This document shows, piece after piece, positions 3,999 to 27,925 of a stretch of 64,000 nt of DNA. Within the stretch, counting starts at the first letter, position 1, and each line of letters opens with the position of its first letter. The translations under genes and the position numbers were made by a program. Under the pieces are notes generated by a model. It did not search any database. It saw only the letters and a list, made by a program, of their open reading frames with translations, and was not told where the DNA came from. This stretch comes from an uncultured Thiothrix sp. (lineage in GTDB: Bacteria; Pseudomonadota; Gammaproteobacteria; Thiotrichales; Thiotrichaceae), in NCBI RefSeq assembly GCF_937873765.1, contig NZ_CALMZC010000039.1, positions 1 to 64,000 on the forward strand. The letters are read 5' to 3'.

Positions 3999-5303
3999 AT
4001 GGCCGATTTAAGCAGTAATTTCTTAGGTATCAAAAGTCCCAACCCTTTTTGGTTAGCCTCTGCACCGCCGACCGATAAAGAAGTCAATGTTATACGTGCT
4101 TTGGAAGCCGGTTGGGGAGGGATAGTTTGGAAAACAGTGGGTGAAGATCCGCCGGTCGTGAATGTGCATGGCCCGCGCTATGCCGCTTTATTAGGCTCTG
4201 ATCGGCGCGTGATTGGCTTCAATAATATTGAGCTGATTTCTGATCGACCGCTACAAACTAATTTAGAAGAAATGGCGCGGGTGAAAAAGCGTTTTCCTGA
4301 TCGGGCGATTATTGCCTCGATCATGGTTCCCTGTACCGAGCAAGCTTGGAAAAATATTCTGCCACAAGTGGAGGATACGGGTTGTGATGGGATTGAGCTG
4401 AATTTCGGTTGTCCGCATGGTATGAGCGAGCGCGGGATGGGTTCGGCGGTCGGGCAAGTACCTGAGTATATTCAGATGGTAACAGCGTGGTGCAAGCAAT
4501 ACAGTCGCTTACCCATTATCGTTAAACTCACCCCTAATATTACTGATATTCGTATGCCAGCGCGTGCTGCCAAAGCTGGCGGTGCAGACGCAGTATCATT
4601 GATCAATACGATCAACTCCATTATAAGCGTCGATTTGGAAAAAATGGCTATCTACCCGAATACTGATGGTGCAGGTTCGCATGGTGGTTACTGTGGCTAT
4701 GCGGTCAAACCGATTGCACTAAATATGGTAGCAGAAATTGCACGGGATCCAGAAACGGCAGGACTACCGATTTCGGGTATAGGTGGAATTACCACCTGGC
4801 GCGATGCTGCAGAATTCCTAACCCTCGGTGCGGGAACGGTACAAGTCTGTACCGCTGCAATGGTTTATGGTTTTAAGATCATTGAAGATCTTTGCGCTGG
4901 CCTTGCTAGTTTTATGGATAGTCATGGCTATCCATCCATCGACCAACTAGTCGGTAAGGCCGTACCCACCGTTAAAAACTGGAATCAACTTAATCTCAAT
5001 TATGTTGAGAAAGCGGTGATCAATCAGGATCTTTGTATCAAATGCGGGCGTTGCCACATCGTCTGTGAAGATACCTCACATCAAGCCATTTTCGCCACAA
5101 AAAATGGTGAGCGTTATTTCGAGATTAATGAAGCTGAATGTGTCGGCTGCAACTTATGTGTATCCGTTTGCCCTGTAGCGGATTGTATCAGCATGCGTGC
5201 CTTACAAGTGGGTGAGGTCGATCAACGCACAGGGCATGCAGTCAGCGGCACTTATGCCAATTGGACAACACATCCCAATAATCCGGGTGCGGGGTGTTCT
5301 TGA
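3999..5303 (+). CDS. preA: NAD-dependent dihydropyrimidine dehydrogenase, FMN and Fe-S subunit PreA
   Basis: This 434-residue protein has the dihydroorotate-dehydrogenase-like FMN barrel first, with NFGCPHGMSERGMG around residue 130; the Cys there is the catalytic acid of the family. A C-terminal ferredoxin domain carries two [4Fe-4S] motifs, CIKCGRCHIVCE and CVGCNLCVSVCPV. It reduces the 5,6 double bond of uracil or thymine using electrons relayed from PreT. The ribosome-binding site GAGAGGAG lies just before ATG 3999. Length and domain order are as usual for PreA. Confidence 0.92.
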   Translation: MADLSSNFLGIKSPNPFWLASAPPTDKEVNVIRALEAGWGGIVWKTVGEDPPVVNVHGPRYAALLGSDRRVIGFNNIELISDRPLQTNLEEMARVKKRFPDRAIIASIMVPCTEQAWKNILPQVEDTGCDGIELNFGCPHGMSERGMGSAVGQVPEYIQMVTAWCKQYSRLPIIVKLTPNITDIRMPARAAKAGGADAVSLINTINSIISVDLEKMAIYPNTDGAGSHGGYCGYAVKPIALNMVAEIARDPETAGLPISGIGGITTWRDAAEFLTLGAGTVQVCTAAMVYGFKIIEDLCAGLASFMDSHGYPSIDQLVGKAVPTVKNWNQLNLNYVEKAVINQDLCIKCGRCHIVCEDTSHQAIFATKNGERYFEINEAECVGCNLCVSVCPVADCISMRALQVGEVDQRTGHAVSGTYANWTTHPNNPGAGCS

Positions 5304-5396
5304 GTTAATGTAAACCGGTGATTTGAGTTTTGGAGGAGAGCAGTCTTAAGCCAAGTTGGATTCCTTAACCCTTTAGATGACAGGATGGTGTTAAAT

Positions 5397-8272
<2,876 letters not shown>

Positions 8273-8291: not shown

Positions 8292-9554
8292 ATGAAACAG
8301 CAAACAGAGTTGGATATGACGAATCTGCGCGTGAATGGTGAGCGCCTCTGGGATTCCTTGATGGAACTAGCCCAAATTGGCGCGACTCCCAAAGGTGGTG
8401 TTTGTCGTTTGACACTCACCGATTTAGATAAACAAGGCCGTGATCTGGTGCTCAAATGGGCGCAAGAAGCGGGTATGACGATTACCATTGATAAGATTGG
8501 TAATGGTTTTATGCGCCGTGCTGGGCGGAATAATGCGCTACCGCCAGTAGTCACGGGTAGCCATATTGATACTCAGCCTACCGGCGGCAAGTTCGATGGT
8601 AATTATGGTGTGCTGGCGGGTTTAGAGGTGGTGCGTACGTTGAACGACTACAAAATCGAAACCGAAGCACCGATTGAAGTGGCCTTTTGGACGAATGAAG
8701 AAGGCTCGCGCTTTGTGCCTGTCATGATGGGCTCTGGTGTATTCGCTAAAGCGTTCACACTCGAACACGCTTATGCTGCGACCGATACTGAAGGTAAAAC
8801 GGTTCAAGGTGAATTAGCGCGGATTGGCTATATTGGTGAGCAAGAGCCGGGCGATCATCCGATTGGTACTTATTTTGAAACGCATATCGAGCAAGGTCCT
8901 GTACTGGAAGACAACGATAAGACCATTGGGGTCGTACAAGCCGTCTTAGGCATTCGTTGGTTTGATTGTACGGTAGTCGGGATGGAAGCACATGCAGGGC
9001 CAACCCCAATGCATTTGCGTAAAGATGCCATGCAAGGTGCGGCCGAAATCATGCAAGAAATTGTGGCTTGTGCACTCCGTCATAAGCCACATGGACGCGG
9101 TACTGTCGGCATGGTGCAGGTCTATCCGAATAGCCGCAATGTCATTCCGGGCACTGTGAAGTTCAGTATTGATCTACGTAATCATACCGATGCACTGGTC
9201 GATCAAATGGCTGATGAGGTTAAAGCATTTGCGGCAGAGGTTGCTAAGCGTCGTGGTTTAGAGATTAAAATTGAAATGGTCTCTAGTTACCCCGCACAAC
9301 CTTTTCATGCGGATTGTGTGAATGCAGTGGCTCGGGCTGCGGAAAAGCTAGGCTACTCCAATATGCCAGCCGTCTCTGGTGCTGGGCACGACGCCGTGTA
9401 TATGGCACGCCTTGCACCGAGTGGGATGATTTTCATTCCTTGCAAAGATGGCATTAGCCACAATGAAATCGAAGATGCTAAACCTGAGCATATTACCGCT
9501 GGCTGCAATGTTTTGCTGCATGCGATGTTAGAGCGAGCAGGGTTAGCAGTTTAG
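8292..9554 (+). CDS. M20-family amidohydrolase, likely beta-ureidopropionase
   Basis: A zinc-dependent hydrolase of 420 residues in the N-carbamoyl-amino-acid hydrolase / allantoate amidohydrolase family. Metal ligands are visible in GSHIDTQPTGGKFDGNYG and in FWTNEEGSRF; ETHIEQGPVLE and the dimerisation-domain motif AHAGPTPM are also typical. As last gene of the preTA operon it would release beta-alanine (or beta-aminoisobutyrate), CO2 and ammonia from the ring-opened pyrimidine. The start is ATG 8292, five bases after a perfect AGGAGG; the GTG at 8289 is too close to that site. Allantoate or hydantoin-derived substrates remain possible. Confidence 0.85.
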   Translation: MKQQTELDMTNLRVNGERLWDSLMELAQIGATPKGGVCRLTLTDLDKQGRDLVLKWAQEAGMTITIDKIGNGFMRRAGRNNALPPVVTGSHIDTQPTGGKFDGNYGVLAGLEVVRTLNDYKIETEAPIEVAFWTNEEGSRFVPVMMGSGVFAKAFTLEHAYAATDTEGKTVQGELARIGYIGEQEPGDHPIGTYFETHIEQGPVLEDNDKTIGVVQAVLGIRWFDCTVVGMEAHAGPTPMHLRKDAMQGAAEIMQEIVACALRHKPHGRGTVGMVQVYPNSRNVIPGTVKFSIDLRNHTDALVDQMADEVKAFAAEVAKRRGLEIKIEMVSSYPAQPFHADCVNAVARAAEKLGYSNMPAVSGAGHDAVYMARLAPSGMIFIPCKDGISHNEIEDAKPEHITAGCNVLLHAMLERAGLAV

Positions 9555-9566
9555 TTTCAATGGAAA

Positions 9567-9594
9567 GATAACGACCTATGCTCAGGTCGTTATC
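9567..9594. terminator. Hairpin between convergent genes
   Basis: A perfect 11-bp stem, GATAACGACCT and AGGTCGTTATC, with an ATGCTC loop lies between the operon end and the pyrC stop. There is no long T-run on either side, so this is a likely but not classical bidirectional terminator. Confidence 0.6.
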
Positions 9595-9619
9595 CTATGA
9601 CTTAAAATTACTTAAAAAT

Positions 9620-10675
9620 TTACTGTGCTTCAACTACCTGCCAGTACACATCCATCATCGGGTCAAAAGCTTGTACTTCGGTATTGCTCAATTTTAAGTT
9701 AGCTGGTGTGGCTTGAGGTTCTGTTTGTCGTTTTAAAACTAAGCGCTTTGTATTCACAGGCAAACCATAAAAAGCAGGGCCATTGAGGGAAACAAAACGT
9801 TCAAATTGATCCAAAGCATGTTCTTGCTCAAATACTTGCGCTGTGATGGCTAGTGCATTTACCACATTAAAAATCCCCGCACAGCCACAAGCCGTTTCTT
9901 TAGCATGAATGGGGTGTGGTGCTGAATCGGTACCCAAGAAAAAGCGCCGATCACCACTCACGGCAGCCGCTCGTAAAGCTAAACGATGCGATTCACGCTT
10001 AGCAACTGGCAAGCAGTAGTAATGTGGCTTAATCCCTCCGACCAGCATGGCATTACGATTAATCACTAAATGATGGGGTGTGAGCGTGGCAGCGGTATAG
10101 CTATCACAAGATACAACATAATCCACCCCGTCTTTAGTGGTCAGATGTTCAAACACAATTTTGAGATTAGGGAATTGCTTGCGGAGTGGAATCAATTTGG
10201 TTTCAATGAAGACCGCTTCCCGATCAAAAATATCTACCGCAGGATCAACGACTTCACCATGCACAAGGAAAGGCATACCCATTTCCTGCATCACCTCTAG
10301 CACGGGATAGATTTTCTCTAAATCTTTGACACCGGCTGCGGAGTTCGTGGTTGCCCCTGCGGGATAGAGTTTGACGGCTGTGACTAAACCCGATTCAAAG
10401 CCCGCTTTTACATCGGCAGCTTCAGTAGTTTCAGTCATATATAGAGTCATTAGAGGCTGAAACTGCTGGTGGCTAGGTAAAATTGCTAAGATGGCTTCAC
10501 GATAAGCTCGGGCATCTGCTGTTCTTATAACGGGAGGCTGTAGATTGGGCATAACAATCGCGCGCCCAAAATGTGCTGCGGTATAAGGCAAGACTTTCTC
10601 TAGCATTTCACCATGGCGTAAGTGTACATGCCAGTCATCAGGCATAGTGATTTCTAAGCGAGTGGGGGTAGTCAT
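9620..10675 (-). CDS. pyrC: Dihydroorotase, class II
   Basis: At 351 residues this matches the length of E. coli-type Pyr[11 protein letters not shown] gives the two metal-binding His, YPAGATTNS contains the Lys that is carbamylated, HGEV and FEHLTT supply further metal ligands, and GTDSAPH the catalytic Asp. It makes dihydroorotate from carbamoyl aspartate in de novo pyrimidine synthesis. It runs towards the degradative operon, so synthesis and breakdown genes sit back to back, perhaps by chance. Confidence 0.95.
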
Positions 10676-10848
10676 GGTTGGCTCCGCAGATAAAATAAGC
10701 GCGCCGATTTTAGCAAAAGTTCACTGAACGCTAGAGTGTTTTTCTTGGGGTTGAGTATGGATGAGGTATTTAATTCTAAGTTTGTTTAAGGCAAGAGTGC
10801 CAGCCTAAGCCGACACACTTGCTAGGGAAAGAGGAGGAGAGTCTTCGC

Positions 10849-11352
10849 TTATTGAACAGCAGCCGGTGCTGGAGTAGCTGCTGGAGCTGCTACTTGTGGC
10901 TGAACGGTTGGCGCAACTGGAGCTTGTGGCATAGACATCATCGGTGGTTGATAATAAGCCATTGGGCCATAAGGATAGCCACCATTGGATGTGGTATTGG
11001 TGAAGCCGTAGCCATTACCATAAGTATTACCCCAACCGTTGCCATTGCCTGCTAAATAGCCATTAGTATCTGCATCACCTTTGCCAACCATATCAGCATT
11101 CATGTCTGATTTGCCTTTGCCTTTGAAGGTGATTTGGAATTCAACTTCACCATCAGCATTGCCTTTGCCGCTGCCCCAACCATCTACATTGCCTTTACCA
11201 GTGCCCCAACCATTACCAGCACCGTTAGTGTAAGCACTACCATTGCCAGCGGCGGAACCGTTACCACTACCATTGCCATTGTCAAAGAATTCAGCAGAAG
11301 CAGCACCTGACAAAGCGATCAAAGCAGCGAAAGCTAAAGTTTGTAATTTCAT
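10849..11352 (-). CDS. Secreted Gly/Asn-rich protein, sulfur globule protein-like
   Basis: A 167-residue protein with a clear Sec signal peptide (MKLQTLAFAALIALSGAASA, cleaved before EFF). The mature part is built of short G-N/G-K/G-W units such as GNGNGWGNTYGNGYGF and ends in a Pro/Ala/Gln-rich tail. Low-complexity Gly/Asn/Tyr exported proteins of this kind form the envelope of periplasmic sulfur globules in Allochromatium and related sulfur oxidisers. The dsr and soe genes in the window make that role plausible. The start is ATG 11352 with AGGAG eight bases upstream; a TTG six bases earlier is less likely. A perfect AT-rich dyad lies about 60 bases upstream of the start. The assignment rests on composition and export, not on a catalytic motif. 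Confidence 0.65.
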   Translation of the reverse strand: MKLQTLAFAALIALSGAASAEFFDNGNGSGNGSAAGNGSAYTNGAGNGWGTGKGNVDGWGSGKGNADGEVEFQITFKGKGKSDMNADMVGKGDADTNGYLAGNGNGWGNTYGNGYGFTNTTSNGGYPYGPMAYYQPPMMSMPQAPVAPTVQPQVAAPAATPAPAAVQ

Positions 11353-25320: not shown

Positions 25321-25740
25321 TCAACTTGAAAAAGGATTCACTAAGTTAAGCCCTAAACCTTCAAAGTCTTTAATATTACGGGTCGCAATCGTCAAGCCAT
25401 GCACTAGCGCAGTTCCGGCAATCAGCGCATCGGCTAAATGGATAATCCGACCTTGTTGTTTTGCCTGCGCACGTAAGCGAGCCGCTTGGCTGGCTTCTGC
25501 TTGCTGAATGGGTAGCACGAAAGCAGTGTATTGATTTAATAATAATTGAATGGTTTCGGCTAATTGACTGCGCCGATTTCCTTCGGGCAATAAATTTAAG
25601 CCATATTCCAACTCGTGTACGGTAATAATCGACAGCCATGCTTGTGCTTGTTGAGCCACAAATTGGATCAGTTTGGGGTCGGGTTGCGGCTTGCACAGTT
25701 CTGAAAGGATATTCGTGTCCAATAAATAAGCTTGGCTCAT
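25321..25740 (-). CDS. PIN-domain toxin, VapC/FitB type
   Basis: A 139-residue PIN ribonuclease. The acidic residues are visible in YLLDTNILSEL, in VHELEYGL, in HLADALIAGTAL and in ATRNIKDFEGLGL. It would cleave RNA, commonly initiator tRNA or rRNA, when free of its antitoxin. It overlaps the antitoxin gene by 4 bases (ATGA), in the usual antitoxin-toxin order. Confidence 0.9.
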   Translation of the reverse strand: MSQAYLLDTNILSELCKPQPDPKLIQFVAQQAQAWLSIITVHELEYGLNLLPEGNRRSQLAETIQLLLNQYTAFVLPIQQAEASQAARLRAQAKQQGRIIHLADALIAGTALVHGLTIATRNIKDFEGLGLNLVNPFSS

Positions 25741-26006
25741 TGAAAGGGAATCTCGCGCTCAGGTTCTTGACGTTCAGGGAGTTCCAATTCACCTACTCCA
25801 GCCATGCGTTCCACCAGCCACTGCCCTAGCGGTTGTTTAGGTTGAGACAAAGCTTGCCAAGTTTCTTGCGAGATTAAGACATAAGATTTTTTTGTGCCAA
25901 TGAATTGGGGCGTATCGTTAGCGCGACGTAATAGCTCAGAAAGCCGCGCTTTAGCTTCAGCGACACTCCAGACTTGAGTTTCGGGATTAATTTTCGCGAG
26001 TTCCAT
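25737..26006 (-). CDS. Phd/YefM-type antitoxin
   Basis: An 89-residue protein whose N-terminal half has the Phd/YefM features: WSVAEAKARLSELLRRAND, then an FIGTKKSYVLIS strand and ETWQAL. The C-terminal tail (QEPEREIPFQ) would wrap the toxin. It should repress its own promoter, where a perfect dyad sits at 26025-26039. The ribosome-binding site is AGGAGTG. Confidence 0.85.
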   Translation of the reverse strand: MELAKINPETQVWSVAEAKARLSELLRRANDTPQFIGTKKSYVLISQETWQALSQPKQPLGQWLVERMAGVGELELPERQEPEREIPFQ

Positions 26007-26075: not shown

Positions 26076-26106
26076 TAAAAAAATTTCGAGCAGGGGCTAG
26101 CCCCTG
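26076..26106 (-). terminator. Terminator of the caspase-FGE operon
   Basis: On the minus strand a self-complementary 18-base GC-rich element (GCAGGGGC/GCCCCTGC, 26089-26106) is followed by TCGAAATTTTTTT. This is a strong intrinsic terminator for the minus-strand gene at 26207-27925. Confidence 0.8.
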
Positions 26107-26206
26107 CACCCCTGCGTGAACGCCTCCAGCCTTCGCTGGCGCTACTCCGTAACGCGCCGGCCAACGCTTACTCCGCTCACGCCCTGCGGCTCCGCCGCCT
26201 TGAAGC
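26107..26206. other. GC-rich hairpin-dense segment after the putative variable region
   Basis: One hundred bases, much richer in GC than their surroundings. They hold a 5-bp stem with a 3-base loop (GCGGC-TCC-GCCGC, 26186-26198), only nine bases past the caspase-FGE stop codon, and a second hairpin CCAGC-CTTC-GCTGG (26125-26138). In DGRs a hairpin just 3' of the variable region helps target it for retrohoming. Nothing here codes for protein as far as I can see. Confidence 0.5.
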
Positions 26207-27925
26207 TCAATGACCTAGAGCAAAGCGGAAACCGATGTAGTTGTACCGATAATCAGGCGCGTTGCGGTTCCGGCGGGCAGAACGCAAGTACTGGCCGCCA
26301 TCGTACCATGAACCACCACGCAACACGCGGCGAGTCCCAGAAGATGACCCCTCCGGGGCACTGGCAGGGCTGATGCGGTAGTAATCTTCACCATACCCGT
26401 CTTGTACCCATTCCCACACATTTCCACTCGTATCATATAAGCCCCAAGCATTAGCGGCATACGAACCTACTGTAACGGTTTTGTCTGAATCTTTACATTC
26501 GTCTGAAAAACTACCATAACGTGCCTGAGCACAGTTAATTTTCTCACCCCAAGGATAGTCTGACTCTTCCCCCGCGCGTGCCGCATATTCCCATTCCGCT
26601 TCCGTCGGTAGCCGATAACGTTTGCCAGTTTGTTGGTTTAACCAAGGGATATATTTTTGGGTAATATCATTCCAACTGACATTAATCACTGGTCGCCGAC
26701 CTCGACCCCAGCCCATATCCTCCGCATGGGGGCAAGCCTTGGCACGTTCACAGGCATCCCATTCGTCAAAAGTCACTTCATATTTGCCGAGCTGAAAAGC
26801 AGGTAGGCTAACGGTGTGGGGTGGTTTTTCATTTTCTGCACAACGACCCTGCACATCATCGCGCCCTGCCACGCAACCCATCGTGAAGCTTCCCGCTGGA
26901 ATAGGCACCATTTCTGGCTCGAAGGGCAGGCGCTCTGTCTTGGTCTTAGCTTCTGACATCGCCTGAGTTTCTGCCGGTTGGCGTGATGTTGGTTCATCCT
27001 CTTGCTCTTTAGCAGCCGCTACGGTTTTAGGTGAAAAGAAAAAGAAATCACCCTCTTCACTATTAGGTAAACGGCTTAACTGCGGTGTAATAGGATGCTT
27101 CCATTCGACCTCAGTTCGCACATCATCCACCCGCTTTTTAATAAATAGCTCTAGCTCACGTGCTGAAATCACGCCATCTTTAACGCCATCAATGGCTAAG
27201 TCCGCTCGACCCCGCAAACCATCCAACACGGCATTGGTAAAAACACTGCTGCCCAGCTCAGGCAAGACGAAGGTTTCTTGATCAGCTAAGCCTGCGGTGA
27301 TGATTTGCCGACTAGGGCGGGCGATTTGTTTTAAGGTGCGCGCTTGATTGTCGCTTTGTGGAATCACCGCTGCACCCCCACTAAAGCAGGCATCCAATAA
27401 ATAGAGGGTTTGCTTAGCGTTTAAGCGCTTATCCCACTTAGCTAAATCTTCCATATCCAGCATTGTGGAGTATTCATCATGGCCAGAGCGTGCTGTTGGT
27501 AAATAACCGAAACTGCGCTCACCATTTTTCAAAGTCGCTCCATGCCCCGCCCAATAGAACAATAAACGATCTTGCTCACCGATTTTAGTGCGCAATTCAT
27601 CCACCATAATTTGGCGTACACGCTCTGGTGTGACCTTATCTTCAGTCAGCAGGTGCACATAATCAAAACCCGCTTCATCCAGCAAATAATTTTTAATACG
27701 CTCAGGATCTTCAGGATTACTCAAAGTGCTAAAGTCGCGAAAACTACTTACACCGATCACTACCGCATAGCTTTTATTAAAATTAGGACGTTGAAACGCT
27801 GAGAATAAGCGTTCACCCCAAGTTGTTGTGGACTCAGTTTCATAAACCTGATCAATTCCTTCAGCCGCCCAGCTTGGCTGTTGCAAGCAAGCCCATAAAA
27901 TTATCAAGCTTAAGCGCTTTTTCAT
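26207..27925 (-). CDS. Secreted caspase-like protease fused to an FGE-sulfatase (SUMF1-like) domain
   Basis: The 572-residue protein starts with a signal peptide (cut near PSWAA). Residues about 50-250 are a C14 caspase-like domain with the catalytic dyad His128 in WAGHGA and Cys180 in LLDACFSGG. A linker rich in Glu/Thr follows. From about residue 340 to the end there is an FGE-sulfatase domain: MVPIPAGSFTMG, RLPTEAEWEYAARAG, SGNVWEW and VLRGGSW to GFRFAL. FGE domains of this kind have a C-type-lectin fold and are common DGR targets. The last 35 residues fit that pattern (see 26225-26311). It would be an exported protease whose ligand-binding face may be diversified. It overlaps a small membrane-protein gene upstream by 4 bases. 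Confidence 0.88.
   Translation of the reverse strand: MKKRLSLIILWACLQQPSWAAEGIDQVYETESTTTWGERLFSAFQRPNFNKSYAVVIGVSSFRDFSTLSNPEDPERIKNYLLDEAGFDYVHLLTEDKVTPERVRQIMVDELRTKIGEQDRLLFYWAGHGATLKNGERSFGYLPTARSGHDEYSTMLDMEDLAKWDKRLNAKQTLYLLDACFSGGAAVIPQSDNQARTLKQIARPSRQIITAGLADQETFVLPELGSSVFTNAVLDGLRGRADLAIDGVKDGVISARELELFIKKRVDDVRTEVEWKHPITPQLSRLPNSEEGDFFFFSPKTVAAAKEQEDEPTSRQPAETQAMSEAKTKTERLPFEPEMVPIPAGSFTMGCVAGRDDVQGRCAENEKPPHTVSLPAFQLGKYEVTFDEWDACERAKACPHAEDMGWGRGRRPVINVSWNDITQKYIPWLNQQTGKRYRLPTEAEWEYAARAGEESDYPWGEKINCAQARYGSFSDECKDSDKTVTVGSYAANAWGLYDTSGNVWEWVQDGYGEDYYRISPASAPEGSSSGTRRVLRGGSWYDGGQYLRSARRNRNAPDYRYNYIGFRFALGH
26225..26311 (-). other. Candidate DGR variable region in the FGE domain
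   Basis: The C-terminal SWYDGGQYLRSARRN... to YNYIGFR is framed by the invariant GGSW, LRSA, PD and GFR of DGR variable regions. The residues between are coded mostly by NNC codons (TAC, GGC, GGC, TAC, CGC, AAC, CGC, AAC, TAC, AAC, TAC), as if AAC codons had been changed only at their adenines. A matching adenine-rich template repeat and a reverse transcriptase would be needed; neither is in this window. DGR homing in trans to distant target genes is known in bacteria. Confidence 0.6.

Follow-up and report, generated by a model that had tools for sequence, protein, structure and literature searches.

The C-terminus of a caspase-FGE protein of an uncultured Thiothrix sp. (positions 26207-26320 of the window, by which we mean the whole stretch of 64,000 nucleotides that was analysed) proves, on sequence comparison, to be a true variable repeat (VR) of a diversity-generating retroelement (DGR). 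Neither a DGR reverse transcriptase (RT) nor a template was found in the window or elsewhere in the genome assembly. We consider it likely that the VR is the product of a past DGR whose RT and template have been lost, with seven VR genes left behind as a repertoire, part of which is decaying. That these seven VRs are orphaned is the best reading of the evidence, and they are probably frozen.

The target gene (Table 1) lies where the sequence-only reading had placed it and encodes both of the expected domains. Pfam searches of the protein match PF00656 (Peptidase_C14) at residues 52-241 (E 3.7e-10, over the profile cut-off) and PF03781 (FGE-sulfatase) at residues 337-569 of 572 (E 1.3e-51), and the VR occupies the C-terminal part of this C-type-lectin-like/FGE domain. 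By profile and by its catalytic His/Cys motifs the protein is of the Peptidase_C14 caspase type. The earlier description of an exported caspase stands in its second part, given that the motif pair GHG and DACFSG looks intact; as to its first part, the N-terminus resembles a signal peptide when judged by eye, and export is probable. A search with the caspase half for orthologues returned one 45% relative (G034), and since the open frame of that relative is without FGE there is no orthologous VR for comparison. A radical-SAM/TRAM gene lies upstream of the target gene on the same strand, and a gene pair for a PIN-domain toxin and a small antitoxin-like protein lies just downstream. The terminator-like palindrome behind the target gene was not flagged by a consensus terminator scan; it would be the probable 3' end of the transcript rather than a part of the DGR.

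Table 1. Positions of the features discussed in the text. Positions without a prefix refer to the window; prefixed positions refer to contigs (C) or fetched loci (L).
Feature	Position	Strand	Basis or remark
Caspase (Peptidase_C14) and FGE-sulfatase protein, DGR target gene	26207..27925	(-)	Open reading frame of 572 aa and Pfam
VR, residues 537-567 (GGSW...GFR)	26225..26317	(-)	Differences from the C37 VR on relatives' template-adenine columns
VR-type homing end (IMH-like) CTAGGTCA, overlapping the last codons	26211..26218	(-)	Motif comparison with relatives' VRs and templates
Target-site hairpin GGCGC-GTTACGGAGTA-GCGCC	26138..26158	(-)	Roughly 50 bases beyond the stop codon; the window has 1 match where 0 are expected
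Terminator-like palindrome GCAGGGGCTAGCCCCTGC, then T run	26077..26107	(-)	By eye; stem present in computed fold
PIN-domain toxin and small antitoxin-like gene pair	25321-26006		
Two resident RT genes (UG17-type DRT; type XIII retron RT)	L001:967-2334 and L002:1051-2349		
Adenine-rich template-like sequence	C27:48228-48322 (L022:10229-10323)		
NACHT-FGE protein of C38	L023:14285-16900		872 aa
Tandem FGE-only genes of C32	L027, ~8300-11000		
TIR-FGE target of G005	L067:4632-6354		Open frames 4632-6032 and 5989-6354

The sequence of the tail is RGGSWYDGGQYLRSARRNRNAPDYRYNYIGFRFALGH. Variable codons in it take the form NNC, NNT or GCG, which agrees with the earlier observation of a GGSW...GFR frame filled almost only with NNC codons. 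Codon shape is weak evidence, because the frame GGSW...RSA...P...GFR is common to ordinary FGE tails (e.g. L008). A comparison of paralogues is more specific to adenine. The nearest paralogue of the window gene (contig C39) is found on contig C37, and the FGE domains of the two are 84% identical. In the aligned VRs, 36 of 99 columns hold an adenine in at least one of six template repeats that adjoin DGR RTs in relatives; the genome's own template being absent, the test rests on these relatives' templates. Differences between the C39 and C37 VRs fall on 16 of the 36 adenine columns and on 2 of the 63 others (Fisher p = 6e-7), one of the two exceptions lying just beyond the GFR core. The mark of adenine-specific mutagenesis that had been suspected from the codons alone is thus borne out. 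Silent sites point the same way: third codon positions account for only 1 of 17 changes in the VR but for 47 of 74 in the 201 FGE codons that precede it (p = 1.5e-5). In this upstream stretch 63 codons differ, 39 of the 201 synonymously, whereas 1 of the 32 VR codons does so. The two tails are therefore alike at silent sites and unlike at template-adenine sites within domains that have otherwise diverged, which argues for rewriting from one template. Most other paralogue pairs of the genome have the same excess at adenine columns, yet a greater silent divergence, so that one common template need not have served them.

Complete cassettes are present in relatives. In a genome of the same genus (G005, contig C14, L067) a target, an HRDC protein, an RT of 342 aa with the motif GLPIGSLTSQ and a template lie within 4 kb, and similar cassettes occur in G001, G074, G069, G067 and G072; in four intact cassettes of relatives the HRDC and RT genes stand between target and template. 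The nearest DGR-bearing relative is G072 (MAG JAHJJD01, JAHJJD010000058.1, L076; Gammaproteobacteria, marine rock biofilm), whose FGE comes closest to the window protein among the genome contigs searched. Four RT-linked pairs of VR and template have all of their mismatches at template adenines (14/14, 14/14, 11/11 and 8/8, or 47/47). The TIR-FGE target of G005 is apparently split by a frameshift into two open frames. All six cassettes have the VR frame and homing end in common with the window, but they own an HRDC protein, an RT and a template, whereas the window genome has VRs only. The homing end reads AGGTC in VRs and AGCTC in templates: verified templates of relatives carry CTAGCTCA or CAGCTCA where the window VR has its CTAGGTCA, the VR form.

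A second shared element is the hairpin behind the stop codon, which starts 50-60 bases past the homing-end motif. When the 4.0 Mb genome was searched with GCGCGTYACGGAGTAGCGC at up to 2 mismatches, the 5 matches were all behind VRs (C39, C37, C51 and twice on C32), and the reversed control of the pattern gave 0. The same class of hairpin follows the VR in G005, G072 and G074, with an exact match to the 19-base core in G005, and 14 stem-loops of this loop class, in VR loci, were counted in 1.7 Mb of fetched loci. The outer stem has 4-5 bp and encloses a conserved loop of 11-12 nt in which 2-3 inner pairs are possible. In a set of ten variants the stem swaps are compensatory (GGCGC/GCGCC, GCGGC/GCCGC, GGGGC/GCCCC, AGCGC/GCGCT) while the loop is conserved. 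Covariation is 0.372 against 0.136 for shuffled sequences and far above slid controls, and 96% of cells are paired, a percentage that is inflated because the ten sequences are mutually related and were chosen for stems of at least 4 pairs; loop conservation and genome-wide specificity are unaffected. A hairpin downstream of the VR is also present in the target of the Bordetella phage BPP-1, where the structure but not the sequence of the stem matters, and where the sequence of the loop matters (Guo et al., 2011, PMC3240598). In hairpins of the phage type a stem of 7-10 bp carries a GRNA loop of 4 nt, at a distance of 4-34 bp from the VR (PMC3240598), so that the stem of the window type is shorter and its loop longer. 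A role of the window hairpin in homing is presumed.

Selection could be considered as the source of the variation, the FGE genes then being ordinary paralogues under diversifying selection, with variable surface loops and no retroelement at any time. Indeed, the same tail frame is found in many other FGE proteins, and every lectin-like fold has variable loop positions. Selection on loops, however, would not erase synonymous differences, as has happened in the VR codons relative to those upstream, nor would it tie the changes to template-adenine columns. The common homing end and a hairpin outside the coding sequence, as well as the sister-species cassettes with RT and template, would be left unexplained, and we regard this account as very improbable. 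Paralogues, relatives, homing end and hairpin instead agree that the FGE (C-type-lectin-like) domain carries a DGR VR, as had been proposed.

The genome (4.01 Mb, a draft of 69 contigs rated 100% complete) contains 14 FGE matches. Seven genes have a VR-frame tail together with an intact or mutated homing end, namely C39 (the window gene), C37, C16a, C16b, C51, C32a and C32b, a repertoire beyond the reach of a reading confined to the window. Their VRs sit on caspase, TIR, PEGA or FGE-only proteins, C37 having a PEGA-type N-terminus and C51 a TIR domain. The window gene is intact in its open reading frame, caspase motifs, homing end and hairpin. Decay is seen in C37, in which the homing end is broken (GGTTAA), and in C16b, which has an internal VR deletion, a mutated homing end and an upstream stop. 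On contig C32 two FGE-only genes stand in tandem, each with VR, homing end and hairpin (GTCACGGAGTA loop); this pair differs at 14 of the 36 adenine columns and at 5 of the 63 others. In other FGEs of the genome, on C63 (with an internal stop), C5, C14, C21 and C15, the scan gave no VR homing end or hairpin. Contig C38 encodes a NACHT-domain protein with an FGE tail of another VR type, that of C27.

Exactly two proteins of the assembly match RVT_1 (PF00078), one on C12 that is assigned to RT_UG17 (E 4e-154) and one on C38 that is a type XIII retron RT (E 6e-167). The RVT_1 profile scores a relative's DGR RT at E 7e-18 and would therefore detect one in this genome. With the same-genus DGR RT as query, the only match in the assembly was the UG17 protein, at 25% identity; the profile matches and this query rule out the resident UG17 DRT and the type XIII retron as DGR RTs. 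The only match of the HRDC accessory query in the assembly spans 72 residues of a 606-aa open frame, probably RecQ. Searches of the genome with the VR itself, with the inferred all-adenine template and with a degenerate pattern gave no matching template: the inferred template hit nothing but VRs and, on C27, a sequence belonging to another VR type, and the degenerate pattern only the latter. This adenine-rich, template-like orphan lies between a TetR-like and an ABC-transporter gene, outside any FGE gene and with no RT nearby. As a template for the window VR it is rejected, being of a different type; its best partner, if any, is the NACHT-FGE tail of C38, where 15 of the 25 mismatches are at adenine and 10 at other bases, and given the former it may be the eroded template of another DGR. 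An AAC-rich stretch like that of C27 was also seen in G007 (contig C13, L166).

The sequence-only reading had noted that RT and template are missing from the window, which holds, and had proposed a target served in trans. It had looked to the rest of the genome for an adenine-rich near-copy of the VR beside a DGR RT, and took the absence of these as evidence against itself; neither was found. Current service by a resident DGR is thereby refuted in the assembly, but the origin of the VR is not, since it is shown independently by the relatives, paralogues, homing end and hairpin.

Nonetheless, with 69 contigs a DGR locus could be missing from the draft, and since the window gene is intact, members of the population that retain an RT could still diversify it. 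The VR could then be a live remote target: a DGR RT and template, carried by the cell, or by a fraction of the population, and either missing from the assembly or mobile, would diversify the seven VRs in trans. In Thiohalocapsa PB-PSB1 diversification reaches some seemingly incomplete DGR loci in trans, or through cells in which intact variants persist (PMC10907252), the homing end and hairpin of the window gene are intact, and related DGR RTs are patchy in the wider family, being present in 14 of 63 genomes. We nevertheless hold a live remote target to be unlikely. The assembly without DGR RT is rated complete, some VRs and homing ends have decayed, and a gap poorly explains why VRs without a related DGR RT also occur in G065, a genome in one contig, and in G022, where 40 contigs hold four VRs and no RVT_1 match. 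Two further one-contig genomes are in between, G070 with an RT fragment (~160 aa matched) beside a partial template, and G068 with a VR and the HRDC gene kept but no related DGR RT. Such intermediate states are best explained by repeated loss of the engine with the VRs kept, and a gap in the assembly would hardly account for all of it. We infer that the absence of RT and template from the assembly is a real loss. In a comparison of the G005 cassette with loci of the window genome, only FGE similarity was present among the matches listed, so that no empty site can be defined.

If loss is the correct reading, the genome would once have carried an HRDC-type DGR of the kind still present in the sister species, with target, HRDC protein, RT and template. 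The RT would have reverse-transcribed a template rich in adenine, introducing random changes at adenines, and the cDNA would have homed into the window gene as well as its paralogues, with the VR end and the hairpin behind the stop codon as guides, giving each target its own binding face. With the later loss of RT and template the face would now be fixed. The present protein would presumably serve as a sensor in the periplasm or outside the cell, its caspase acting upon binding. Ligand binding by the tail, with the caspase as effector, is suggested by the architecture and by a published proposal, which its authors regard as still to be tested (PMC10907252; PMC7159879).

DGR-diversified FGE sensors with caspase-like, TIR or NACHT parts have already been published, as have remote targets and incomplete loci (PMC10907252). 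The cellular DGRs of Thiohalocapsa (2024, PMC10907252) resemble the window system in their C-terminal FGE/CLec VRs on modular NACHT, TIR or caspase-like proteins, in having several targets per genome and some loci without RT or template, in CLec domains shuffled between N-termini, and in the occurrence of exported targets. However, Thiohalocapsa keeps at least some intact RTs and templates, and its diversification was measured in metagenomes, whereas the window genome has no DGR RT or matching template; the window target carries Peptidase_C14, whereas a Thiohalocapsa target has CHAT plus TIR. The main text of that paper mentions neither HRDC nor hairpins. In the literature we found nothing linking DGRs with Thiothrix or with metacaspases. 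The newer parts are thus a genome with seven VRs and no engine, the recurrence of this state in further species, and the hairpin and homing-end tags.

What began as a hunch from a codon pattern has become, after testing, an example of a DGR target that has no DGR. RT-centred surveys overlook targets of this kind, as one of them concedes for remote targets (PMC8144416), and the AGGTC homing end together with the GTTACGGAGTA-loop hairpin provides tags by which orphan VRs can be found with no RT nearby. It also becomes testable whether receptor repertoires, here on caspase, TIR, PEGA and NACHT proteins, are kept after the loss of their diversity generator. More speculatively, and we think it rather unlikely, VR sensor genes of this bacterial family might outlive their retroelements, with multi-gene repertoires being diversified in bursts as an RT/template cassette comes and goes. 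If so, chromosomal VRs would keep their homing end and hairpin, and a genome without RT would be a ready acceptor for an incoming cassette.
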